Source: Hymenobacter sp. 15J16-1T3B
GTDB lineage: Bacteria > Bacteroidota > Bacteroidia > Cytophagales > Hymenobacteraceae
Direction of reading: 5' to 3'
DNA length: 64,000 nucleotides
Assembly: GCF_020711235.1 (NCBI RefSeq)
Contig: NZ_JAJFAV010000001.1
Span: 186,001-250,000, forward strand
The notes beneath the pieces are model-generated. The model was given only the letters and a program-made list of their open reading frames with translations, had not been told where the DNA came from and did no database searches. Numbering within the stretch: the first letter of the stretch is position 1; the number at the start of each line of letters is the position of its first letter. The position numbers and the translations under genes are program-made. This document shows, piece after piece, positions 2,889 to 38,761 of this stretch.

Positions 2889-4577
2889 ATGTCCTACAAA
2901 CTGATGCCGGCGCTGCTGGCCGCCGCGCTGCTGGCCAGCCCGGCCCTGGCCCAGGACGCCAAGCAGAAAGTCAAGGTGAAGCGCAAGGCCAAGACCGAGG
3001 CGCCCGCTGCCCCCGACGCGGCCCCGGCCGCTGCGGGCCCCACCAGGCAAGCCCCGGTGCCCGTCGACAACGCCCGCATTTACGCCGACGGCATCACGCA
3101 GGCCGATCTGCGCAAGCACCTATCGGTGCTGGCCTCCGACGAGTACGAAGGCCGCGAAACCGGCGAGAAAGGCCAGAAAATGGCGGCCGAGTACATTGCC
3201 AACCGCTTCAAGGAGCTGGGCCTGGTGGGCCCGGTACAGGGCTCCGACAACCCCTACCTGCAGCACTTCACCATGGAGCGCAGCACCTGGCCCGGCGACG
3301 GCACCCTGAAAGTGGGCAGCCAGAGCTACCAGTGGATGAAGGACTTCTACGCCTACGGCAACTCGCCCTTCGACAAAGCCACCACGCTGCAGCCGGTGTT
3401 TGCCGGCTACGGCATCGAAGAAGGCAGCTACAACGACTACGCGGGCCTCGACGTGACCGGCAAGGACCTCATCGTGCTGATGGGCGAGCCGCAGAAGGAC
3501 GGCAAACCGGTGCTCAGCAAGGACGGCAACCCGACCAAGTGGGGCAACGACTACCGCGCCAAGGCCGCCCTGGCCACCCAGAAAGGCGCCCGCTCGGTGT
3601 TCTTCGTCAACTTCAACCCCAAAGACGACTTCGGCAAGACCATGGCGCGGCTGCAGCCCTACCTGAGCCGACCGAGCATCAGCTTCCTCGACAAAAAAGA
3701 GGCCCGCGCGGCCACGTTCTTCGTGTCGCCGGCCCTGGGCTACAAGCTGCTGGGCACCACCGAAGCCGCCGTGCGCAAGTACGAAGCCGCCGCGGCCGCC
3801 GCGACGGGCAAGCCGGCCAGCTCCTTCAAGCCGGCCTCGTTCACGGTGACGGCGCCGAAGAAGCGGGAGCAGTTCACCACCGAAAACGTGCTGGGCTTCC
3901 TCGAAGGCTCGGACAAGAAAGACGAAATCCTGGTGGTGTCGGCGCACTACGACCACATCGGCATCATCGGCGGCGAGGTGCACAACGGGGCCGACGACGA
4001 CGGCTCGGGCACGGTGTCGGTGCTGGAAATGGCCGAGGCCTTCACCCAGGCCAAAGCCGCCGGGCAGGGCCCGCGCCGCAGCATCCTGTTTCTGACGGTG
4101 ACCGGCGAAGAGAAGGGCCTGCTCGGCTCGGAGTACTACACCGACCACCCCGTGTTTCCGCTGGAGCGCACCATTGCCGACCTGAACATCGACATGGTGG
4201 GCCGCACCGACAAGGAGCACGAGGGCAAGCCCGACTACGTGTACGTCATCGGCTCGGACAAGCTTTCCTCGGAGCTTTACAACATCGTGGAAAACGCCAA
4301 CAAGCAGTACACCACCATCGACCTGGACTACCGCTTCAACGACCCCGGCGACCCGAACCGCTTCTACTACCGCTCCGACCACTACAACTTCGCCAAGCAC
4401 AAAATCCCGGTGGCCTTCTTCTTCAACGGGGTGCACGCCGACTACCACGGCCCCAAGGACGAGGTGGACAAGATTGAGTTCCCGAAGATGGAGAAGCGCG
4501 CCCGCCTGGTGTTCTACTCGGCCTGGGACCTGGCCAACCGCGACCAGCGCATCGTGGTGGACTCCAACAAGCCCTAA
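2889..4577 (+). CDS. M28 family metallopeptidase, paralog 1 of 3
   Basis: A 562-residue exported peptidase. ATG at 2889 gives a good signal peptide (MSYKLMPALLAAALLASPALAQ); the longer in-frame start at 2814 would bury it. A Lys-rich KVKVKRK tract and a Pro/Ala linker follow. The middle carries a PA-like insert region (PVFAGYGIEEGSYNDY, KDLIVLMGEP). The M28 zinc site is complete: SAHYDH (about residue 353), NGADDDGSG, TGEEKGLLGSEYY with the catalytic Glu, NIDMVGR and HADYHGPKD. Family members are co-catalytic zinc aminopeptidases acting on peptides outside the cytoplasm. No T9SS sorting domain is present, so it is probably periplasmic or lost to the medium. The next two genes are close paralogs on the same strand, which indicates tandem duplication. 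Confidence 0.92.
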   Translation: MSYKLMPALLAAALLASPALAQDAKQKVKVKRKAKTEAPAAPDAAPAAAGPTRQAPVPVDNARIYADGITQADLRKHLSVLASDEYEGRETGEKGQKMAAEYIANRFKELGLVGPVQGSDNPYLQHFTMERSTWPGDGTLKVGSQSYQWMKDFYAYGNSPFDKATTLQPVFAGYGIEEGSYNDYAGLDVTGKDLIVLMGEPQKDGKPVLSKDGNPTKWGNDYRAKAALATQKGARSVFFVNFNPKDDFGKTMARLQPYLSRPSISFLDKKEARAATFFVSPALGYKLLGTTEAAVRKYEAAAAAATGKPASSFKPASFTVTAPKKREQFTTENVLGFLEGSDKKDEILVVSAHYDHIGIIGGEVHNGADDDGSGTVSVLEMAEAFTQAKAAGQGPRRSILFLTVTGEEKGLLGSEYYTDHPVFPLERTIADLNIDMVGRTDKEHEGKPDYVYVIGSDKLSSELYNIVENANKQYTTIDLDYRFNDPGDPNRFYYRSDHYNFAKHKIPVAFFFNGVHADYHGPKDEVDKIEFPKMEKRARLVFYSAWDLANRDQRIVVDSNKP

Positions 4578-4598
4578 CGGCTGCGTTGCCCCGGATGG

Positions 4599-4635
4599 AT
4601 GGCCGGTTGTTCTGAACAGCAGAACCGCCGGCCAT
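4599..4635 (+). terminator. Hairpin between M28 paralogs 1 and 2
   Basis: ATGGCCGG (4599-4606) pairs with CCGGCCAT (4628-4635), with additional inner pairing TTCT/AGAA. There is no long T-run, so it may be a weak terminator or a processing or stability hairpin in a shared transcript. Confidence 0.35.
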
Positions 4636-4694
4636 TTATTCGTTTTGCCCCCTTTCTCTCAACAACCAGCACCGCCTTACCCCCCGTTGCAGTT

Positions 4695-6365
4695 ATGCCC
4701 AAACCCTTTGTTCCCCTGCTGCTGGCGGCCCTGGCCCTTGGCAGCGCGCCCGCCCTGGCCCAGAAAGCCAAGGTGAAAGTCAAAAGCAAGGCCGAGAAGA
4801 CCGAGCCGGTGGCCGCGCCCGCCCCGGCGGCGCCCACCGACTGGTCGGTGACCTACGCCAGCACCATCACGCCGGAGGATTTGCGCAAGCACCTGTCGGT
4901 GCTGGCTTCCGACGAATACGAGGGCCGCGAAACCGGCGAGAAGGGCCAGAAAATGGCCGCCGAGTATTTGGCCAAGCAATTCGCCGCCTTGGGGCTGGCG
5001 GGGCCGGTCAAGGACTCGGACAACCCTTACATCCAGCACTTCACCCTGGAGCGCAGCAGCTGGGACGCGGCGGGCATGAAGCTGCAGATCGGCAAGCAGC
5101 AGTACCAGTGGCTGGCCGACTACTACGCCAGCGGGGACTTGCCCTTCGCGCAGGAAACCGCGCTGCAGCCGGTGTTTGCCGGCTACGGCATCGAGCAGGA
5201 AGGCTACAACGACTACGCCGCCCTGCCCGACCTGACCGGCAAGGACGTGGTGGTGCTGGTGGGCGAGCCGCTGAAAGACGGCAAACCCCTGCTCGGCAAG
5301 GACGGCAAACCCAGCAAGTGGGGCTTCGACGCGCGCAGCAAAGTGGCCGCGGCCACCAAGCGCGGGGCCCGCAGCATCGTGTTTGTGCACCCGGACGCGG
5401 CCAAGTTCACCGAAATCCTCGCCCGCTACAAGCCCTACCTGAGCCAGCCGCGGGTGAGCATGCTCGGCAAGCCCGGCACCGCGCAGCCGCCCCGCGCCGC
5501 CGCCCTGACCCTTTCGCCGGCGGCCGGCTACGCCCTGCTCGGCACATCGGCCGACGGCGTGGCCAAGTACCAAGCCGCCGTGGGCGCCGCCGGTCAGCCG
5601 GTAAAAGCCTCGTTTAAACCCACGAAGCTGCTGATTAAGTCGCCGCGCAAAACCAGCACTTTCTCCACCGAAAACGTGATGGGCCTGCTGGAAGGCAGCG
5701 ACAAAAAAGACGAAGTGCTGGTGCTGTCGGCGCACTACGACCACCTGGGCGTGCAGGACGGCAAGGTGTACAACGGGGCCGACGACGACGGCTCGGGCAC
5801 GGTGTCGGTGCTGGAGCTGGCCGAGGCCTTCACCAAAGCCAAAGCCGAGGGCCACGGCCCGCGCCGCAGCATCTTGTTTCTGACGGTGACCGGCGAGGAA
5901 AAGGGCCTGTTTGGCTCGGAGTACTACACCGACAACCCCGTCATTCCGCTCGCCCAGACCATTGCCGACCTGAACATGGACATGGTGGGCCGCTACGATG
6001 ACCAGCACAAGGCCGGCGACCAGTACGTGGAATTGGTGGGCTCGGACAAGCTCAGCTCGGAGCTGCACGCCATCAACGAGGAGGCCAACAAGAAGTACAC
6101 CCAGCTGGACCTGGGCTACCGCTACAACGACCCCAACGACCCGGAGCGCGTGTACTACCGCTCCGACCACTACAACTTCGCCAAGCACAAGGTGCCGGTC
6201 ATTTTCTACACCACCGGCGACCATGCCGACTACCACCAGCCCACCGACGACGTCGACAAAATCGAGTTTCCGCTGATGGCCAAGCGCGGGCAGCTGGTGT
6301 TTCACACCGCCTGGGAGCTGGTCAACCGCGACAACCGCATCGTAGTCGACTCCAACAAGCCGTAG
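4695..6365 (+). CDS. M28 family metallopeptidase, paralog 2 of 3
   Basis: A 556-residue protein closely related to its neighbours. ATG at 4695 gives the signal peptide MPKPFVPLLLAALALGSAPALAQ; the frame is open from 4599, but that region forms an intergenic hairpin. KAKVKVKSK follows the signal. All zinc-site motifs are present: SAHYDHLG (about residue 347), NGADDDGSG, TGEEKGLFGSEYY, NMDMVGRY and HADYHQPTD. Like paralog 1 it ends in RIVVDSNKP. The near-identical blocks around the active site (NGADDDGSGTVSVLE) and the variable middle suggest conserved catalysis with diverged substrate preference; the latter is inference. The family call is secure. Confidence 0.92.
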   Translation: MPKPFVPLLLAALALGSAPALAQKAKVKVKSKAEKTEPVAAPAPAAPTDWSVTYASTITPEDLRKHLSVLASDEYEGRETGEKGQKMAAEYLAKQFAALGLAGPVKDSDNPYIQHFTLERSSWDAAGMKLQIGKQQYQWLADYYASGDLPFAQETALQPVFAGYGIEQEGYNDYAALPDLTGKDVVVLVGEPLKDGKPLLGKDGKPSKWGFDARSKVAAATKRGARSIVFVHPDAAKFTEILARYKPYLSQPRVSMLGKPGTAQPPRAAALTLSPAAGYALLGTSADGVAKYQAAVGAAGQPVKASFKPTKLLIKSPRKTSTFSTENVMGLLEGSDKKDEVLVLSAHYDHLGVQDGKVYNGADDDGSGTVSVLELAEAFTKAKAEGHGPRRSILFLTVTGEEKGLFGSEYYTDNPVIPLAQTIADLNMDMVGRYDDQHKAGDQYVELVGSDKLSSELHAINEEANKKYTQLDLGYRYNDPNDPERVYYRSDHYNFAKHKVPVIFYTTGDHADYHQPTDDVDKIEFPLMAKRGQLVFHTAWELVNRDNRIVVDSNKP

Positions 6366-6392
6366 GGGTTTTGTTAACTTGCTTACCGCTTT

Positions 6393-6447
6393 GACTGGCT
6401 GGTTGGCGTGCCTTCGTAAGAGGCCGGCAACCAGCCAGTCGGTTTTT
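6393..6447 (+). terminator. Intrinsic terminator after M28 paralog 2
   Basis: A perfect 13-bp stem, GACTGGCTGGTTG (6393-6405) with CAACCAGCCAGTC (6428-6440), followed by GGTTTTTC. Together with the separate signal peptide downstream, it suggests that paralog 3 has its own promoter. Confidence 0.75.
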
Positions 6448-6479
6448 CGTCCCTTCCGGCGGCTTTTCGCTTCGATTCA

Positions 6480-8156
6480 ATGTTTCGCATTCCCTTCCTG
6501 ACGCTGCTGCTGGCCGGCGGCCTCGGACTCAGCAGCTTCTCGGCCCAGGCCCAGGGCAAGGTCAAAGTCAAGACCAAAACCAGCGCCGCCGCCCCTACGG
6601 CCGACGACGCGGCCGTGACCTACGCCGGCACCATCAGCGCCGCCGACCTGCGCCAGCACCTGAGCATTCTGGCCTCGGATGCCTACGAAGGCCGCGCCAC
6701 CGGCGAAAAAGGCCAGAAGATGGCCGCCGATTACCTGGCGGCCCGCTTCAAAGAGCTGGGCCTCACCGGGCCGGTGCCGGGCGGGGTGAGCCCCTACCTG
6801 CAGCCGTTTGGGCTGGTGCGCTACGCCCCGGATGGGCCGGGGCAGCTGCGCGTGGGCCCGCAGACGTTTACGGCCGGCCGCGACTTTGTGGGCTTCGGCC
6901 CCTCCCCCTTCCGCACCGAAACCAAAGCCGAGCCGGTGTTCCTCGGCTTCGGTATCGAAACCGACAAGTACAACGACTACGCCGGCCAGGACGTGAAGGG
7001 CAAGGACCTCATCGTGCTGCAGGGCGAGCCGACCGACGGGCGTGGGCATTACCTGCTCTCGGGCGCCAAGCAGGAATCGGAGTGGAGCTCTACCTTCCGC
7101 AAGGCCGCCCTGGCCCGCGACAAGGGCGCCCGCAGCATCTTCATGATAACTTTCGCCCCGGGCGCGGCCTTTGCCCCCATGGCCGAAAGCATGGGCGAGG
7201 CCCTGAGTGAGCCCGGCTACGAGCTGACGGCCCCGGTGCGCCAGCCGCTCACCGGCTTCATGCTCACCGAGGCGCCGCCCACCGGCATCGGCTCCTACCT
7301 CACCTCGCTCGACCTCGGCGCGGCCCTGCTCGGCATCGGGCCGCAGGAGCTAGGCCAATACGTGCTGGCCACGTACCAGAATCAGCAGCCGCCCAAAACC
7401 AGCTTCACGCCGCGCGCCTTCACGGCCACCGTGCCGCAGTTACGCGTCGAGCTGGCCTCCGAAAACGTGCTGGGTTTGCTCGAAGGCACCGATAAGAAAG
7501 ACGAAGTCGTGGTCATTTCGGCGCACTATGACCACGTAGGCATTCAGCACGACACCATTTACAACGGGGCCGACGACGACGGCTCGGGCACCTCGGCGGT
7601 GCTGGAGCTGGCCCAGGCCTTCAGCAAAGCCAAGGCCGAGGGCCACGGCCCGCGCCGCAGCATCCTCTTCCTGCTCAACGCCGGCGAGGAGCGCGGCCTG
7701 CTCGGCTCCGACTACTACACCGGCCACCCGGTAGTGCCGCTGGCCCAGACGGTGACGGACCTGAACATCGACATGGTGGGCCGCACCGACAAGCGCCACT
7801 CGGCCACCGAGCGGTACCTCTACCTCATCGGCTCGGATAAGCTCAGCTCAGGCCTGCACGCGCTCAGCGAGGCGGCCAATGCGAGGTACGCCAAGCTCAA
7901 GCTGGACTACTTCTACAACGACCCCAGGGACGAGGAGAAGCTCTATTACCGCTCCGACCACTACAACTTCGCCCGGCACGGCATTCCGGTCATCTTCTAC
8001 ACCAGCGGCCTGCACCAGGACTACCACAAGGCCACCGACGACGTGGACAAGATTGAATTCGATAAGCTGGCCGACCGCGCCCGGCTGGTGTTCTACACCG
8101 CCTGGGAACTGGCCAACCAGGACCAGCGCCCGGTTGTCGACTCGAACAAGCCTTAA
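6480..8156 (+). CDS. M28 family metallopeptidase, paralog 3 of 3
   Basis: A 558-residue protein and the most diverged of the three. The signal peptide is MFRIPFLTLLLAGGLGLSSFSAQAQ, followed by KVKVKTK. The zinc-site motifs remain: SAHYDHVG (about residue 347), NGADDDGSG, NAGEERGLLGSDYY (Arg in place of the Lys seen in the other two), NIDMVGR and HQDYHKATD. The C-terminus ends in VVDSNKP as in both paralogs. The central region between the PA-like part and the catalytic block differs most (EAPPTGIGSYLTSLD is absent from paralogs 1 and 2). Its stop codon overlaps the stop of the convergent small gene within a shared TTAA (8153-8156). Confidence 0.92.
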   Translation: MFRIPFLTLLLAGGLGLSSFSAQAQGKVKVKTKTSAAAPTADDAAVTYAGTISAADLRQHLSILASDAYEGRATGEKGQKMAADYLAARFKELGLTGPVPGGVSPYLQPFGLVRYAPDGPGQLRVGPQTFTAGRDFVGFGPSPFRTETKAEPVFLGFGIETDKYNDYAGQDVKGKDLIVLQGEPTDGRGHYLLSGAKQESEWSSTFRKAALARDKGARSIFMITFAPGAAFAPMAESMGEALSEPGYELTAPVRQPLTGFMLTEAPPTGIGSYLTSLDLGAALLGIGPQELGQYVLATYQNQQPPKTSFTPRAFTATVPQLRVELASENVLGLLEGTDKKDEVVVISAHYDHVGIQHDTIYNGADDDGSGTSAVLELAQAFSKAKAEGHGPRRSILFLLNAGEERGLLGSDYYTGHPVVPLAQTVTDLNIDMVGRTDKRHSATERYLYLIGSDKLSSGLHALSEAANARYAKLKLDYFYNDPRDEEKLYYRSDHYNFARHGIPVIFYTSGLHQDYHKATDDVDKIEFDKLADRARLVFYTAWELANQDQRPVVDSNKP

Positions 8157-31974: not shown

Positions 31975-32703
31975 ATGCCCCTCGCTGCCTCCGACCACGC
32001 CCTGCTCTTCGACATGGACGGCGTGCTCATCGACAACACATCCTACCAGGCCCGCGCCTTCCAGCTGCTGTTCCGCGAGCTGGGCCTCGACACCAAAGCC
32101 CTGCCCCTGCTGCGGCGCCTCAACGGCATGCCCGCCACCAACATCCTCAAAACCGTGTTTCGCCACCCGGTACCGGAAAAGGACCTGAAGCAGTACGCCG
32201 ACCGCCGCGAATTCCTCTACCGCGTGCTCTACTGGGACAAGCGCCGGGAAATGCCCGGCCTCACCACGTTTCTCGACGCTGCCCGCGCCGCCGGCTTTAA
32301 GCTGGCCCTGGGCACCGGCTCGGCCTCCGAAACCATCACCTACATCATCGACCACCTCGACCTGCGCCGCCACTTCGACGTGGTGGTGGGCAAAGACGAC
32401 GTGGACCGCGGCAAGCCCCACGCCGACACGTTCACGGTAGCGGCGCGGCAGTTGGGCATCCCGCCGGAGCGCTGCGTGGTGTTCGAAGACGCTATCCTGG
32501 GCGAACAGGCCGCTTACAAAGCCGGCATGCGCTGCATTGCCGTGGCCAGCACCCTCAAGCCCGCGCAGTTTCAGGCGCCGATGACGGTCATCCAAGACTT
32601 CACCCGACTTACGCCCAACCTAGTGCTGACGCTGCTCGAAGCGCACCCCAAAGTGCCGAAGCCGAGCAAGGAGCTGGCCGGGCGGCAGTACATGCACCTG
32701 TAA
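31975..32703 (+). CDS. HAD-IA family hydrolase (phosphatase/phosphomutase type)
   Basis: A 242-residue haloacid-dehalogenase-like protein. Motif I LLFDMDGVLIDN (nucleophile Asp13, acid Asp15), motif II in ALGTGSAS, motif III Lys in GKPHADTF, and motif IV VFEDAILGEQAA are all present; the helical cap lies between (about 20-85). It resembles beta-phosphoglucomutase or sugar-phosphate phosphatase types; the substrate cannot be told. The last 12 codons, stop and terminator are repeated 5.1 kb downstream (37772-37844), which marks this 3' end as the boundary of an inserted segment. Confidence 0.9.
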   Translation: MPLAASDHALLFDMDGVLIDNTSYQARAFQLLFRELGLDTKALPLLRRLNGMPATNILKTVFRHPVPEKDLKQYADRREFLYRVLYWDKRREMPGLTTFLDAARAAGFKLALGTGSASETITYIIDHLDLRRHFDVVVGKDDVDRGKPHADTFTVAARQLGIPPERCVVFEDAILGEQAAYKAGMRCIAVASTLKPAQFQAPMTVIQDFTRLTPNLVLTLLEAHPKVPKPSKELAGRQYMHL

Positions 32704-32741
32704 CAACAAACCGGCCCGCCTCCCTAGCGGGAAGCGGGCCG
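32669..32741. repeat. 73-bp direct repeat, left copy (HAD 3' end plus terminator)
   Basis: Covers the last codons of the HAD gene (GCCGGGCGGCAGTACATG and following), its stop and the hairpin. The right copy at 37772-37844 is identical at 72 of 73 positions (C at 32698, T at 37801). The 5 kb between holds a single cargo gene. The pair looks like attL/attR of an inserted element or a recombination-generated duplication. Confidence 0.9.
32711..32741. terminator. Bidirectional hairpin, left copy
   Basis: CCGGCCCGC..CCC, TAGC and the mirrored half GGG..GCGGGCCG. It lies between the convergent HAD gene and the giant SBBP gene. There is no T-run, so it may act as an mRNA 3'-end stabiliser or be Rho-assisted. 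Confidence 0.6.
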
Positions 32742-32766
32742 ATTCTCTGTTGCTTAATCTGCAGCG

Positions 32767-35700
32767 CTATTTGTTAATCAAACGTACAGCTTTGCTTCCG
32801 CTACGCACCATGTATACGCCGGCCGGCGCGCGCACAGGCAGCCGTAAGTAGACCGCCCCTGCGGCGTCTGCCTTGGCTCGGAGTAGCAGGTGTCCCTGCG
32901 TGTCGAGCACTTCTACTTCAGCGCCTGGGTATGCTCCTGTGAGGGTAGCCGCGCCCGGTGCCGGGTTGGGGTACACGACCAGTCGGGCCATTGCCTCACC
33001 CAAGTGCACGGTCTGTACGTTGGAATAGGCAAAAGTTGCGTCTTGGTCTACGATCCGCAGGCGGTAGTACAACACCCTAGCATTGGCCGGAAACGCTGTA
33101 TCTATTAGATGATACGAGCACTGTGTTGTACTCGTGCCAACCGCTGCTACTGGCATTCCAAGAGCGGTGAACGTGCGCCCGTCGAGGCTTCGCTCCACTT
33201 GGAAATAGGCGCTGTTCTTTTCCTGTGCAGTCATCCAGGCCAAGCGTACCCCGGTCTGCCCTTGCCTCGTAGCGGTGAAGGAAGTTAGCTCCACGGGCAG
33301 TGGGGTTGCAACAGTAACGACGTTAGAGGTGGGTCCGGTCTCTCCCAGCACATTGTTCGTAGCGCGCACGCGGTAGAAATAAGAACCGACAGTGTCAGGC
33401 AAACCTGTCACCACATAATTACTAGCAGGAGCGGCTATCAGAAATGGAGAACCAGCAACGGGCGTTGCAAAATCGGCTGTAGTCGACACGTCGAGCACAT
33501 AGCTCGTTACAGTGCCGAAAGCCGGAGCTGTCCAACTAGCGGTAAACTCGTTGGCGCCTGTGCCGGACGCAGCCGTGGCAACGGGTACCACCAACGCATA
33601 GCTACTTACCCAGTTTGACGTTGTGTTGCCACTGCTCAAGGCAAAGTTCGAAAGTGCAGCGACGTACGCGTTGGGGCTCAGGTCGTAGAGCGTTGTCAGA
33701 CCAGCGTTGGCGCCACTGTTGACAGCAGCAAGAATACCTGCATCAAAGTTCAGGTACAGTTGCAGATTGGCCGACTGCGAGGGCATGACGCCTCGCAATT
33801 CGGTTTGAAGTTGTTCTAGACTGAGCGCTGCGTTGTAGATGCGAACCTCGTCGATACGGCCTGGCCAGTAGCTACCACCGCCGAGGTGGCCTATTCCCAG
33901 CTCGGCCAAAGGGCTGGCCGAGCGGTTATTGATGAGGGTGCGTTCAGCTACGCCATCCACGTAAATGGTTAGCTGGCCACCGTCGCGCACGCCGGCCAAG
34001 TGGTGCCAATGATTGTCGTTCAGTACGGAAGCTCCCTCGACAATGATGCCGCCCGAAACAGACAATGCTGCGTGCTGGTTCGTCATTCCCAACCAGTATT
34101 CTTCCCCATTGCCCGTGCTGCCCACCGCCACGTAGGTGCCACTGGTGCCGGCAGTACGTACCCAAGCTTCGATCGTGAAGTCGCCCGTACCAAAGCGGAA
34201 CGCAGGGCTGGCCGGGACACTTACATAATCGTCTAGCCCGTCGAAAGCCAGAGCATTACCGGGGGCTGGTACCGTTTGAAACAGCGTGCTAGTAGTACTA
34301 CCCGCAGTAGTACTGAGCGTGGTGATGCCGGAGGTCGGTGTGCCCGATGGCACCCGGAAGCTGATGCTGGTAGCCGTATTGTTAGTCAAGCTAGGTGTAG
34401 CATCTACCCCGTTAACGGTCAGAGCAGTAACACCGCTTAGATTGCTGCCCGTCACCGTCACCAACTGACCTACGCCGGCTGGGTTAGGATTAAAAGCACT
34501 GATGCTAGGGTCCGACAGGGTCAGCTTCGCTAGAAAGGCCGCTTGGGTAGTCGTGCCGCTCAGCGAGATACTGCCAAAGGCAGCTGGCAAGGCTACTGCC
34601 CCTCCTATCACCAGCTGATTGTTGCTATAACTAATAGAAGCGCCCAAATCGGTTCCAGCGCCCCCGCCAGCGGTAGCCCAATTATAAGTGACGTTGCTAC
34701 CCGCATCTGTGTACTTAGCCACGAACACGTCAAGATTGGCGGTGGTACCGCTGCCGCTGAGCGCTACGCCACCGAACCGCACGCCTTGGGCGTTGGTGCT
34801 AGTAGTAGAGATGTTGCCCGATACATATAGATTGTTTCCGTTAAGAGCAATACGGTTTACCCTGTCGGCGCCGGTGCCCCCACCGGCTACTGCCCAGACT
34901 CCCGTCGCGTGGCTGCCAGCGTCAGTATACTTAGCAATGAAAGCGTCAGCGGTTAATGAGCTGCTGGCTCCGTTGAGCGTCACGCCGCCAAACTGCACTC
35001 CGTTGGCATTATTGCTATTGTTATTCGCATACCCCCCCACGTACAGGGTAGTTCCACTTACCGCAATACTGTTGCTTCCATCAATGCCTGCTCCGCCGCC
35101 GGCTGTACCCCAATTGTAGGTGACGCTGTTGCCCGCGTCGGTGTACTTGGTGATGAACACATCCTGATTGGTCGAAGTACCACTGCCGCTGAGCGGCACG
35201 CCGCCGAACTGCACACTTTGGCTGTTGGCGCTGGTATTGCTCATGATACCAACCATGTATACGCTGGTCCCATTCACGGCAATGCCGATGCCTTGGTCGG
35301 AGTTGGTACCGCCCCCAGCTACGGCCCAATTGTAGGTAGCACCGTTGCCTGTATCGGTATACTTAACAAGGAACGCATCAACACTGCTCGTAGCACTGGC
35401 TCCACTGAGCGGCACACCGCCGAATTGTACGGCTTTGCTGTTTGCACTATTGTTTGTTATATAGCCTGTGACGTATACGCTGCTCCCACTAACGGCAATG
35501 CCATTGCCAACATCACCATCCGCCCCTCCGCCGGCCATGGCCCAATTGCAAATCGCGCTGCTGCCTGCATCGGTATACTTGACCACGAAAACATCCAGAC
35601 CAGAAGTGGCGCTAGCACCGGCAACGCTTACTTCACCGAACCGCACCGGAAAATCGGCACTAGCAGCTACAAATCCCGTAGCATATACGCTGTTGCCACT

Positions 35701-37515
35701 GACAGCAATACCAAACCCCATATCACCGCCGCCGCCACCACCGGATACTGCCCACGCCCACGTGCCGGTGGTCGAGCTCCATTTCGCAACAAACACATCA
35801 GAGGAGGCTTCGCTGACGAGTGTGGTGTTACCAAAGACCACTTGGCCGCTGAAATACCCTACTGAGAATACGTCACCGGCTGCGTTTGCCGCAGTGGCTT
35901 GCGTAATAGCGGTACCTGGGGCAGTACGAGAAAAGCTAGCGTACTGCCAAGCACCAGTAGCTGGATCAAGCGTGGCCTGCACAGTGCTATTGGGAGGCAG
36001 CATCTGCTCCGTATCAAAGCGATAGGAGTAAATATCAATAGCTATATTAACGTATAAAGCCGTTCGGCCCACAGCTAGGCTATAGCCAATTTCAGCACTG
36101 GCCCCACCCGTAGCAGTCACCCAGTTGCATGAGGCGTTATTACCTGCATCAGTGTATTTGGCTACGAATGCGTCAGCATTTGCAAGCCAATCCTTGCCAC
36201 TAAGCGGGATGTTGCCGAACCGTACACCCTGCCCATCAGCGCTATCGTTGTATACATAACCAGTCACATACACGCTGGTACCGTCAACGGCAACGTCATA
36301 ACTAATGTCGTTGCCAGACCCACCGCCGGTTACGGCCCAGTTATAACTCACACCGCTACCCGCATCGGTATATTTCGCGGTAAACATATTTAGGTTGGCG
36401 TTAGTCCCGCTTCCACTGAGCGGCATGCCCCCAAACTGCACCCCCTGGCTGTTAGCGCTAGTATTCGTTACGGTGCCAGTGATATACACACTGCTACCGT
36501 TGAGGGCAATGTTATTGCCTTGGTCGGCGCCAGTGCCACCGCCAGTCGTGGCCCAAGTGCACGTGGTGCTATTGCCCGCATCAGTGTATTTCACCAGGAA
36601 CGCATCCCAACTGATTGCAGTACTGGCTCCATTGACCGTAACGCCGCCAAACTGTACCGCCCTACTATTAGAGCTATTATTTGTTACTGCACCCGTAACG
36701 TACACACTATTCGCATCGGCGACAATAGCATTACCGATGTCATCACCTGCGCCCCCCCCGATGGAGGCCCAGTTGTAGGTAGCGTTGCTGCCGGCATCGG
36801 TATACTTAACTACGAACACATCTAACCCGGAAGTAGCACCGGCTCCGTTAAGTGCAGTATTGCCGAACTGCACATTCTGGGCGTTAGCAAGGTTGTTCGT
36901 TACGTTGCCCGTGATGTACACGCTGCTCCCGCTCACAGCAACGCCATTCCCAGTGTCGTTGCTAGCTCCACCACCGGTTACAGCCCAGTTATAGGTGACG
37001 TTACCACCTACGTCGGTGTATTTAGCAACAAACACGTCTCTAGTTGCGAAGCCGCTAGTTCCATTAAGTGCAGTATTGCCGAACTGCACGTTCTCGCTGT
37101 TGGCAAGACTGTTTGTCACATAGCCCGTGACGTACACGCTGCTCCCACTTACGGCAATGCCCCAACCTTGGTCGCTGCCAGTACCACCGGCGCGCACAGC
37201 CCAGACCCAGGCTCCGGAAGCCGCATTCCACTTGGCGATGAAGACGTCATTGAAACCAGCGCTGACCAGGGTGGTGCTACCGAAAGCTACCTGCCCACTG
37301 AAATGACCGACCAAGAGCACGTCTCCAGCCGCATTTACCACTGTGCCGCGCGTAATAGCTGTACCCGAAGCCCCAGTAGTCTGTTCCGACGATAAAGCTA
37401 TTTCCCAGGCTGGTGCCTGCGCCCAGCTCAATTGTGGCATAGCCAACAATAAACAAACCCCAAACCAGGACATCAGGGCCCAGTAATTCCTCCAAAGAAG
37501 GCACAAATGCTTCAT
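32767..37515 (-). CDS. Giant SBBP-like-repeat T9SS type A cargo protein, 1582 aa
   Basis: ATG at 37515 gives the signal peptide ending MPQLSWAQA; the frame is open 24 codons upstream. Residues ~100-1000 are 72-residue repeats with the consensus WAVTGGG..xD.G, AVSGSSVYVTG, VQFG, LNG and FVAKYTDAG. They form two superblocks, each opened by a related header (GTAITRGTVVNAAGDV and GTAITQATAANAAGDV) and holding about six units. An IPT/TIG domain (FNPNPAGVGQLVTVTGSNL, ~1001), a LamG-type lectin domain (LAFDGLDDYVSVPASPAF, ~1088), an FN3 domain (~1308) and a T9SS sorting domain (VYPNPAPGAATL, ~1512, to the end) follow. The gene is the only one in a 5-kb segment bounded by direct repeats, and its GC content looks lower than that of the surrounding accessory genes. 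Function unknown; surface binding is likely. Confidence 0.9.
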   Translation of the reverse strand: MKHLCLLWRNYWALMSWFGVCLLLAMPQLSWAQAPAWEIALSSEQTTGASGTAITRGTVVNAAGDVLLVGHFSGQVAFGSTTLVSAGFNDVFIAKWNAASGAWVWAVRAGGTGSDQGWGIAVSGSSVYVTGYVTNSLANSENVQFGNTALNGTSGFATRDVFVAKYTDVGGNVTYNWAVTGGGASNDTGNGVAVSGSSVYITGNVTNNLANAQNVQFGNTALNGAGATSGLDVFVVKYTDAGSNATYNWASIGGGAGDDIGNAIVADANSVYVTGAVTNNSSNSRAVQFGGVTVNGASTAISWDAFLVKYTDAGNSTTCTWATTGGGTGADQGNNIALNGSSVYITGTVTNTSANSQGVQFGGMPLSGSGTNANLNMFTAKYTDAGSGVSYNWAVTGGGSGNDISYDVAVDGTSVYVTGYVYNDSADGQGVRFGNIPLSGKDWLANADAFVAKYTDAGNNASCNWVTATGGASAEIGYSLAVGRTALYVNIAIDIYSYRFDTEQMLPPNSTVQATLDPATGAWQYASFSRTAPGTAITQATAANAAGDVFSVGYFSGQVVFGNTTLVSEASSDVFVAKWSSTTGTWAWAVSGGGGGGDMGFGIAVSGNSVYATGFVAASADFPVRFGEVSVAGASATSGLDVFVVKYTDAGSSAICNWAMAGGGADGDVGNGIAVSGSSVYVTGYITNNSANSKAVQFGGVPLSGASATSSVDAFLVKYTDTGNGATYNWAVAGGGTNSDQGIGIAVNGTSVYMVGIMSNTSANSQSVQFGGVPLSGSGTSTNQDVFITKYTDAGNSVTYNWGTAGGGAGIDGSNSIAVSGTTLYVGGYANNNSNNANGVQFGGVTLNGASSSLTADAFIAKYTDAGSHATGVWAVAGGGTGADRVNRIALNGNNLYVSGNISTTSTNAQGVRFGGVALSGSGTTANLDVFVAKYTDAGSNVTYNWATAGGGAGTDLGASISYSNNQLVIGGAVALPAAFGSISLSGTTTQAAFLAKLTLSDPSISAFNPNPAGVGQLVTVTGSNLSGVTALTVNGVDATPSLTNNTATSISFRVPSGTPTSGITTLSTTAGSTTSTLFQTVPAPGNALAFDGLDDYVSVPASPAFRFGTGDFTIEAWVRTAGTSGTYVAVGSTGNGEEYWLGMTNQHAALSVSGGIIVEGASVLNDNHWHHLAGVRDGGQLTIYVDGVAERTLINNRSASPLAELGIGHLGGGSYWPGRIDEVRIYNAALSLEQLQTELRGVMPSQSANLQLYLNFDAGILAAVNSGANAGLTTLYDLSPNAYVAALSNFALSSGNTTSNWVSSYALVVPVATAASGTGANEFTASWTAPAFGTVTSYVLDVSTTADFATPVAGSPFLIAAPASNYVVTGLPDTVGSYFYRVRATNNVLGETGPTSNVVTVATPLPVELTSFTATRQGQTGVRLAWMTAQEKNSAYFQVERSLDGRTFTALGMPVAAVGTSTTQCSYHLIDTAFPANARVLYYRLRIVDQDATFAYSNVQTVHLGEAMARLVVYPNPAPGAATLTGAYPGAEVEVLDTQGHLLLRAKADAAGAVYLRLPVRAPAGVYMVRSGSKAVRLINK

Positions 37516-37771
37516 GCGATAAGTAGAGCAACGATGTAGAACCGTAGCCAGCACCAGGGTAGCTTCACTGGCCGAAATATTTACCAATTAGAACGCCCTA
37601 AAGATAGGGTTATCCAACTGGGTGAGGTCGGCAACTTATTGGCTGACAGCAAAGCGTAATTCTTTGATGAATGGAAAGCCAGTCGCTGCAAGTAGCAAAG
37701 CCAATAATTGGACGGAGCTACCATAGCGCACTGGTCTCACTGATATTTTGCCGTATTAGTGTGGGGCTTCG

Positions 37772-37844
37772 AGGAGCTGGCCGGGCGGCAGTACATGCAC
37801 TTGTAACAACAAACCGGCCCGCCTCCCTAGCGGGAAGCGGGCCG
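37772..37844. repeat. 73-bp direct repeat, right copy
   Basis: A second copy of the HAD 3' end, stop and hairpin, here not attached to any HAD coding sequence. The 256 bp between the SBBP start and this copy (37516-37771) hold the presumed SBBP promoter region and nothing else recognisable. Right after it comes the 3' end of atpG. Confidence 0.9.
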
Positions 37845-37845
37845 G
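37814..37845. terminator. Hairpin, right copy, after atpG
   Basis: CCGGCCCGC pairs with GCGGGCCGG, with inner CCC/GGG pairing around TAGC. It ends the ATP synthase transcript on the minus strand. Before the insertion one hairpin probably served both HAD (+) and atpG (-). Confidence 0.65.
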
Positions 37846-37867
37846 CTTCGGTCTTGTAAGGCCGGTT

Positions 37868-38761
37868 CTAGCGGCTGGCTGCCAGTGCCTCAGCGCCGCC
37901 CACGATTTCGAGAATCTCGTTCGTAATGGCGGCCTGACGGCCCCGGTTGTAGGTCAGCTTAAGGGCCTTGAGCAGTTCACCGGCGTTTTCGGTGGCTTTG
38001 TCCATGGCCGTCATGCGGGCGCCGTGCTCCGAGGCGTTGCTTTCCAGCACGGCCTTGTAGAGTTGAATCTTCAGCGAGGTCGGAATCAGGCTCTCGACGA
38101 TTTCCTCCTTGCTCGGCTCGAAGATGTAGTCCACATTCGAGGTAGCAGCGGTGGTCGTAGCGGATTCAGCGGGCGGGAGGATGGGCAGTAACTGCTCGGC
38201 GCGAATGATCTGCGTGGCAACGTTCTTGAACTCGTTGTACACGATGACCACTTGGTCGAACTGTCCTTCGCGGAAACCGGCCATGGCCTGCTCCGCGGCT
38301 ACGCGCACCGTATCGAACGACAGCTGCTGGAACACGTGGGTGTAGTTGCCCACCAGCTCGCCGCGGCGCCCGAAGTAGTCATGGGCCTTACGGCCGATAG
38401 CCATGATGCTCACGCCACCGTTGGCGGCTTGGGTGGCGTAGCGCTCCTGAACAACCTGGTTCACACCCTTGAACACGTTGCTGTTGAAAGCACCGGCCAA
38501 GCCGCGGTCCGAGGTAATGGCAATGATGAGCACGCGGCGCACTTCGCGCTGCACGCCGTAGCCACCGGTCACGTCGGCATCAGCTCCCTGCGAGAGGTTG
38601 CTCAGGATGCCGTTGAGCCGCTGGGCGTAGGGCCGCATGCGCATGATGTTGTCCTGCGCGCGGCGCAGCTTGGCCGCCGCCACCATTTTCATGGCTTTGG
38701 TGATTTGCTGCGTCGAGCTGACCGACTGAATCCGGCCGCGGATTTCCTTTAAGTTAGCCAT
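37868..38761 (-). CDS. atpG: F-type ATP synthase gamma subunit
   Basis: A 297-residue central stalk subunit. The N-terminal helix (MANLKEIRGRIQSVSSTQQITKAMKMVAAAKLRRAQ) and the C-terminal one (ARMTAMDKATENAGELLKALKLTYNRGRQAAITNEILEIVGGAEAL) that form the rotor shaft are both intact, with SDRGLAGAFNSNVFKGV between. Last gene of the operon here. atpD and atpC are not next to it; in Bacteroidetes they usually lie in a separate locus. Confidence 0.97.
   Translation of the reverse strand: MANLKEIRGRIQSVSSTQQITKAMKMVAAAKLRRAQDNIMRMRPYAQRLNGILSNLSQGADADVTGGYGVQREVRRVLIIAITSDRGLAGAFNSNVFKGVNQVVQERYATQAANGGVSIMAIGRKAHDYFGRRGELVGNYTHVFQQLSFDTVRVAAEQAMAGFREGQFDQVVIVYNEFKNVATQIIRAEQLLPILPPAESATTTAATSNVDYIFEPSKEEIVESLIPTSLKIQLYKAVLESNASEHGARMTAMDKATENAGELLKALKLTYNRGRQAAITNEILEIVGGAEALAASR

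Follow-up and report, generated by a model that had tools for sequence, protein, structure and literature searches.

Integrative elements that use the 3′ end of a tRNA gene or of another gene duplicate this 3′ end and keep the gene whole. Exchange hotspots that do without an integrase are also already known, and the route by which genes enter them has mostly been deduced from statistics. Hotspots without mobility genes, with recombination raised in the flanking core genes, are described (PMC5635113). Experimental data come from E. coli, where plasmid DNA was taken up under selection (PMC3240628): a duplication was diagnosed by PCR in 56 of 60 clones, 14 sequenced clones carried 109–950 bp of the homologous end in duplicate, and the authors inferred that a circle, after being shortened, had integrated by one crossover. 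In the same paper, a target deletion beside the insert is named as a feature of homology-facilitated illegitimate recombination, and microhomology at the illegitimate joint is reported for most earlier cases, with none in three of four E. coli clones.

The locus analyzed here lies in a stretch of 64,000 bp of Hymenobacter DNA (the window), in which one long gene is located between a HAD-family hydrolase gene and atpG; a literature search found no title or abstract on this HAD–atpG locus. It resembles the hotspots of PMC5635113 in its high turnover between two conserved genes and in having hardly any mobility gene in the inserts, whereas here the cargo belongs mostly to one functional class with one orientation and duplicated ends of the flanking genes mark some of the exchanges. 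Recombination in the flanking core genes is a feature of those hotspots; our comparisons concern terminators and spacers. As in the E. coli data, the insert of our locus has a short gene end repeated directly on its two sides (109–950 bp there, 39–281 bp of gene end here), which for our locus is deduced from genomes and not from plasmid DNA under selection. Like integrative elements at 3′ ends, it shows a duplicated gene 3′ end next to an intact gene, but there is no integrase among the families listed, no fixed core, and two target genes instead of one. We consider it somewhat more probable than its negation that the locus is an integrase-free exchange hotspot, mostly for genes of T9SS-type exported proteins, into which cargo enters by general recombination via short gene-end homology. 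Hotspot and scar are real, and the mechanism is the uncertain part.

A scan of named genomes with the HAD gene yielded 28 Hymenobacter loci, one Hymenobacteraceae metagenome bin and one distant Calothrix match. Among 200 genomes of the family, the gene was found in 117, confined to two of six genus groups. After 22 of these had been set aside due to contig breaks or another gene order, HAD and atpG were convergent and close in 95 genomes, of which 45 were empty (gap of 63–264 bp) and 50 filled (0.6–19 kb). The 50 filled loci analyzed below comprise 48 surveyed loci, the window and L031 from the named-genome scan, while the filled genome G064 (21.5 kb with flanks) was left out. In the inspected empty sites, HAD and atpG were 65 to 258 bp apart with one hairpin between them. 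Thus, the empty arrangement of HAD, hairpin and atpG that an earlier note on this DNA had expected in relatives does exist, in 45 of 95 genomes. All four nearest relatives were filled with other cargo and none was empty; DNA matches between their gaps and the window insert were short or weak. Gaps larger than 500 bp occurred in 15 of 26 measured HAD–atpG loci compared to 3 of 152 cases in six neighboring gaps; in three further loci atpG lay beyond the sequence taken in. A tree of 70 rows, built by a quick method from the 5′ parts of HAD and atpG and with 20 of the 45 empty loci on it, requires no fewer than 11 switches between the empty and the filled state, with gain and loss indistinguishable. 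The HAD–atpG interval is therefore a real hotspot, in which the same gap between core genes is filled differently between genomes. The low GC content proposed earlier holds for the window, where the gap has 56% GC compared to 63% for HAD and atpG, but not as a general trait, because in 35 of 49 other filled loci the gap was equal to or richer in GC than its flanks.

The repeat search of the window recovered two direct repeats of 73 bp with 72 identical positions (Table 1). The single mismatch (C at 32698, T at 37801) changes CTG to TTG, both encoding leucine. The pair scored 70 in a seed-and-extend script, in which the second-highest score of 40 letter shuffles was 11. The left copy includes the HAD stop codon, and the right copy carries the final 35 nt of HAD without a gene attached, as the earlier note had described. 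HAD and the cargo gene converge across the left hairpin, whereas the right hairpin belongs to atpG and, as judged by eye, also adjoins atpG in inspected relatives. Both hairpins fold at −30.1 to −40.4 kcal/mol on both strands, and for each of the four folds none of 200 shuffles was as good. An ordinary dispersed repeat was ruled out: a 101-bp query (E 0.001) found in the own genome only the two repeat copies and two 36-bp pieces of 89% identity over the terminator part. The repeats confirmed the proposed insert, but its right bound, formerly placed at 37771, is better drawn six bases earlier. GCTTCG stands on both sides of the right copy, and a six-base match equally good occurs at four of 5,018 other insert positions. 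From the sequence, the structure therefore appears better drawn as a direct duplication of 79 bp with a 5,024-bp insert inside the first copy.

Table 1. Coordinates of the features at the HAD–atpG locus of the window.
Feature	Position	Strand	Evidence
HAD-family hydrolase gene, left core flank	31975..32703	+	Pfam HAD_2 1.5e-29; beside atpG in 95 surveyed genomes
Left direct-repeat copy, last 35 nt of HAD and hairpin	32669..32741	+	Repeat search
Left hairpin, between HAD and cargo 3′ end	32712..32741	.	−31.6 (+), −40.4 (−) kcal/mol; z −6.6, −8.9
Inserted cargo segment as better drawn, 5,024 bp	32742..37765	.	Repeat bounds; empty loci in relatives
1,582-aa repetitive protein, Laminin_G_3, weak T9SS-like C-terminal domain	32767..37515	-	ORF open from 37587
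GCTTCG, read as end of first 79-bp copy split off by the insert	37766..37771	.	Equals 37845–37850
Second, intact copy of the putative 79-bp unit (73-bp repeat 37772–37844 and GCTTCG)	37772..37850	.	Repeat search
Orphan HAD 3′ end, 35 nt including stop	37772..37806	+	Repeat search, own-genome search
Right hairpin, next to atpG	37814..37845	.	−30.1 (+), −38.6 (−) kcal/mol
atpG, ATP synthase gamma subunit, right core flank	37868..38761	-	TIGR01146 2.1e-96

The insert of the window consists of one long gene, which is not an integrase. Its product had been called a giant SBBP protein of the T9SS. SBBP gave no Pfam match up to E 10, although five other ORFs within the surveyed gaps matched this family, and the best-supported domain was Laminin_G_3 (2.7e-26). 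The T9SS label can be kept in weak form only, because it relies on a Por_Secre_tail match of 16.0 bits, below the cut-off of 27, and on a C-terminus resembling those of other cargo; no T9SS model including TIGR04183 matched up to E 10 in NCBIfam, so that no T9SS sorting domain above a curated cut-off was found in this protein. Its best matches in the 200 family genomes had 41–47% identity over parts of the protein. Distantly related proteins were found in 37 plasmid records, 21 of them from Hymenobacter, none spanning 80% of the query.

Of the 50 filled loci, 40 contained one or more ORFs whose C-terminal domain is T9SS-like, according to our own profile model, which was seeded with the window protein and iterated on these gap ORFs, so that the window counts as T9SS-like by construction. 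All 69 ORFs with this domain were located on the atpG strand, and one shared orientation would be expected from exchange at one locus. Independently of this model, TIGR04183 matched 42 of 126 ORFs at E 0.01. Other genomes do carry different cargo at the same place, as the earlier note had suspected: it falls into several families, which include long repetitive proteins, a group near 600 aa in length, small proteins of some 120 aa and genes of the helix-turn-helix type. Por_Secre_tail, FG-GAP, Big_5, SBBP and HTH_31, plus single other genes, were among the families listed by Pfam and NCBIfam. Among Hymenobacter-type bacteria, genes mostly resembling those of exported surface proteins are repeatedly acquired, lost and exchanged at this spot between two ordinary genes. 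At 20 other T9SS-like loci, flanking repeats comprised one clear repeat outside genes (L136) and a partial one of 45 bp (L145). The remaining inspected repeat rows at these loci were mostly between related genes.

Orphan 3′ ends of the flanking genes in direct orientation were present in 9 of the 50 filled loci, two from HAD (window, L103) and seven from atpG (L075, L081, L086, L101, L102, L107, L109), and absent from the other 41. The profile search gave eight of them, the window only at E 0.066, and BLAST added L107; inverted, terminator-only and short coding-region matches (e.g., in L096, L101 and L108) were not counted. At least one further direct copy of a flanking terminator was found in 12 of the 50 filled loci, where rows were read by hand. 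The idea of a duplication generated by recombination is supported by these data, and most likely the near-perfect repeat of the window is the scar of incoming DNA that recombined with a neighboring gene end. The incoming fragment would comprise a cargo gene, a short end of the neighboring gene and its terminator; its ends would be joined together, and one crossover in the short homology would integrate it. An equivalent route would be unequal exchange of a filled with an empty allele. Either way, the cargo would come to lie between two direct gene-end copies, the flanking gene would stay whole and one copy would be orphaned. For the window, the fragment would start 35 nt before the HAD end, include the terminator and the cargo, and finish with GCTTCG towards atpG, so that the joined ends would read GCTTCG/AGGAGC and the crossover would yield two copies of 79 bp. 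This junction would fit end-joining of one fragment, and no microhomology was seen there by eye. In the window, L075 and L101, the homologous end stands in direct copies on both sides of the insert, whereas a target deletion beside the insert, as in homology-facilitated illegitimate recombination, was not found; the window shows a duplication. What we infer is the donor, the step via a circle or an unequal exchange, and the relative age of the two copies. General recombination is supported by the empty and filled states and the switches between them on the tree, the variability of the gap, the restriction of orphans to filled loci among those tested and the one-way orientation, with the E. coli duplications and the known hotspots without mobility genes as precedents.

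The same 79-bp unit could also have arisen in two steps, with slippage at the hairpin producing a tandem duplication and cargo entering later between GGGCCG and GCTTCG of the first copy. Strong hairpins provoke slippage, and GCTTCG fits this order of events exactly. However, no tandem self-duplication was present in any of the 20 empty loci tested (of 45), and gene-end copies occurred in nine filled loci, which makes slippage first an unlikely course.

Sister loci give further insight into the origin of the copies. In the cleanest before-and-after pair, L101 differs from L095 by a 1.85-kb insert with one gene and a duplication of about 150 bp of terminator and atpG end. To the left of the insert, a block shows just 78% similarity to L095, compared to 90–92% for the rest, so that the history of L101 was not one clean step. 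L078 and L091 were rejected as a further insertion pair, since they differ by a deletion inside a giant gene. In the coding part, orphan and real atpG agree at 133 of 134 positions in L086 and 95 of 98 in L101, while terminator and spacer differ. In coding sequence, the own gene is the best match for the orphans of L101, L086, L081 and L107, whereas it ranks 4, 9 and 4 for those of L075, L102 and L109, with differences of 0 to 4 bases. When terminator and spacer are compared, the rank of the own locus is 28th for L101, 12th for L102 (scores of 57 for L066, 51 for L092 and 27 for the own locus), 7th for L086, 5th for L107 and 3rd for L075, and with the spacer included the L101 and L102 orphans match other loci best. 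A foreign origin of these two orphans was thus weakened, as the coding part of L101 fits its own gene best, though the spacers still disagree. Because coding parts agree while terminator and spacer differ (L086, L101) and the L102 terminator and spacer fit L066 and L092, two lineages seem to be mixed in orphan-bearing loci, as judged from these sequences. Drift after a plain self-copy should not erase the spacer and spare the coding part. A mixture of lineages, or conversion of the coding part at a later time, gives this result, and conversion after duplication could mimic the pattern of L086 and L101. In the window, terminator and spacer of both copies are identical and only one synonymous base differs, without a sign of a second lineage.

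These comparisons also bear on transposition or repair of a staggered break with an unusually long and variable target duplication. An insert between short direct repeats of target sequence that vary in length would suit it. The L086 and L101 copies are unlike a plain self-copy, and among inverted repeats (arms of at least 20) none but the terminators connect the two ends of the insert; such an event is quite improbable here.

Breakpoints varied in both genes. In HAD, the breaks preceded the stop by 35 and about 284 nt, and in atpG all seven preceded it by about 40 to 134 nt, the orphan starting 8–47 bp after the cargo-gene stop in six cases and 140 bp after it in L109. The atpG breaks of L081, L086 and L109 fall within a few bases of GGTGGC and the other atpG breaks elsewhere, so no constant attachment core was found in the two genes. 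The Pfam scan covered 126 ORFs of 140–1000 aa (best 25 of 74 families), with 54 ORFs rescanned (best 25 of 32); ORFs below 140 aa, 22 ORFs above 1000 aa and genome G064 were outside the recombinase scans. No tyrosine or serine recombinase family was among those listed for the 126 ORFs, and the sole mobility family listed was rve in one ORF, an IS3 transposase. The integrase-type element at the HAD end suggested earlier is therefore unlikely, also because only two of nine orphans derive from HAD. Site-specific integration with an integrase acting in trans would explain why gene 3′ ends are duplicated and genes remain whole, and could make use of GGTGGC, but two target genes, variable breaks and the lack of listed recombinases leave it very little probability.

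A left junction common to the window and L031 was rejected, as the contiguous BLAST match comes down to similarity at the family level next to an unrelated spacer. That the cargo is old at the locus and the near-identity stems from conversion between two diverged terminators would agree with the four filled nearest relatives and with the similar terminators on either side of the L031 cargo, but is the least credible reading, as terminator conversion alone puts no HAD end on the right side and window and L031 share only 10 of 25 spacer and 309 of 478 cargo 3′-end positions.

General recombination via short gene ends also has observations against it. Neither a circle nor a donor nor a clean-insertion allele was seen, the atpG breaks are tighter than random fragment ends unless these were trimmed, and the L075, L102 and L109 orphans, for which the own gene is not the best fit, the many filled loci without an orphan, the uniform window copies and the complex history of L101 count on the same side. 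A tentative, rather doubtful extension is an orientation-locked, recombinase-free cassette locus, in which genes for exported proteins, some trailed by a terminator and a gene-end copy, would be taken in, stacked and lost through homologous recombination between copies, with terminator and gene ends serving as exchange handle for reshuffling the surface proteins of the genus.

At this locus, single exchanges can be recognized, together with their breakpoints, from the duplicated ends of two core genes, and sister genomes in the filled and the empty state form natural before-and-after pairs. If general recombination via short gene ends is true, the locus would be a simple place in a non-pathogenic genus to test integration by short homology, and it would offer a view of how Bacteroidota may diversify their exported surface proteins.

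In the filled HAD-atpG loci, of which 50 were analysed, our own model recognised a T9SS-like C-terminal domain in 69 cargo open reading frames (ORFs), each of them encoded on the atpG strand; the 13 clustered helix-turn-helix ORFs were located on the opposite strand.

At locus L107, additional terminator-like copies were present between the cargo genes; three of these matched the terminator adjoining atpG at L085, and one of the three also carried 41 bp of atpG. Three direct extra copies of the atpG 3′ end, found in different species (L081, L086, and L109), were truncated within a few bases of GGTGGC. The loci L078 and L091, from near-identical genomes, differed by about 2.8 kb within a giant gene, with an overlap of 17 bp at the junction.

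Long gaps also occurred at neighboring intervals, namely 1,401 bp between atpG and atpA at L037 and 881 bp between an alkaline-phosphatase-like gene and HAD at L030. At L136, one of 20 other T9SS-like loci checked for flanking repeats, a T9SS-like gene in another genome was located between direct repeats, the left copy of which overlaps the beginning of an ABC-transporter gene.

Coordinates of the repeat-flanked gene at locus L136
Feature	Position	Repeat length and match
Direct repeat, left copy	3348-3420	74 bp, 88%
T9SS-like gene	3951-7238	
Direct repeat, right copy	7469-7542	74 bp, 88%
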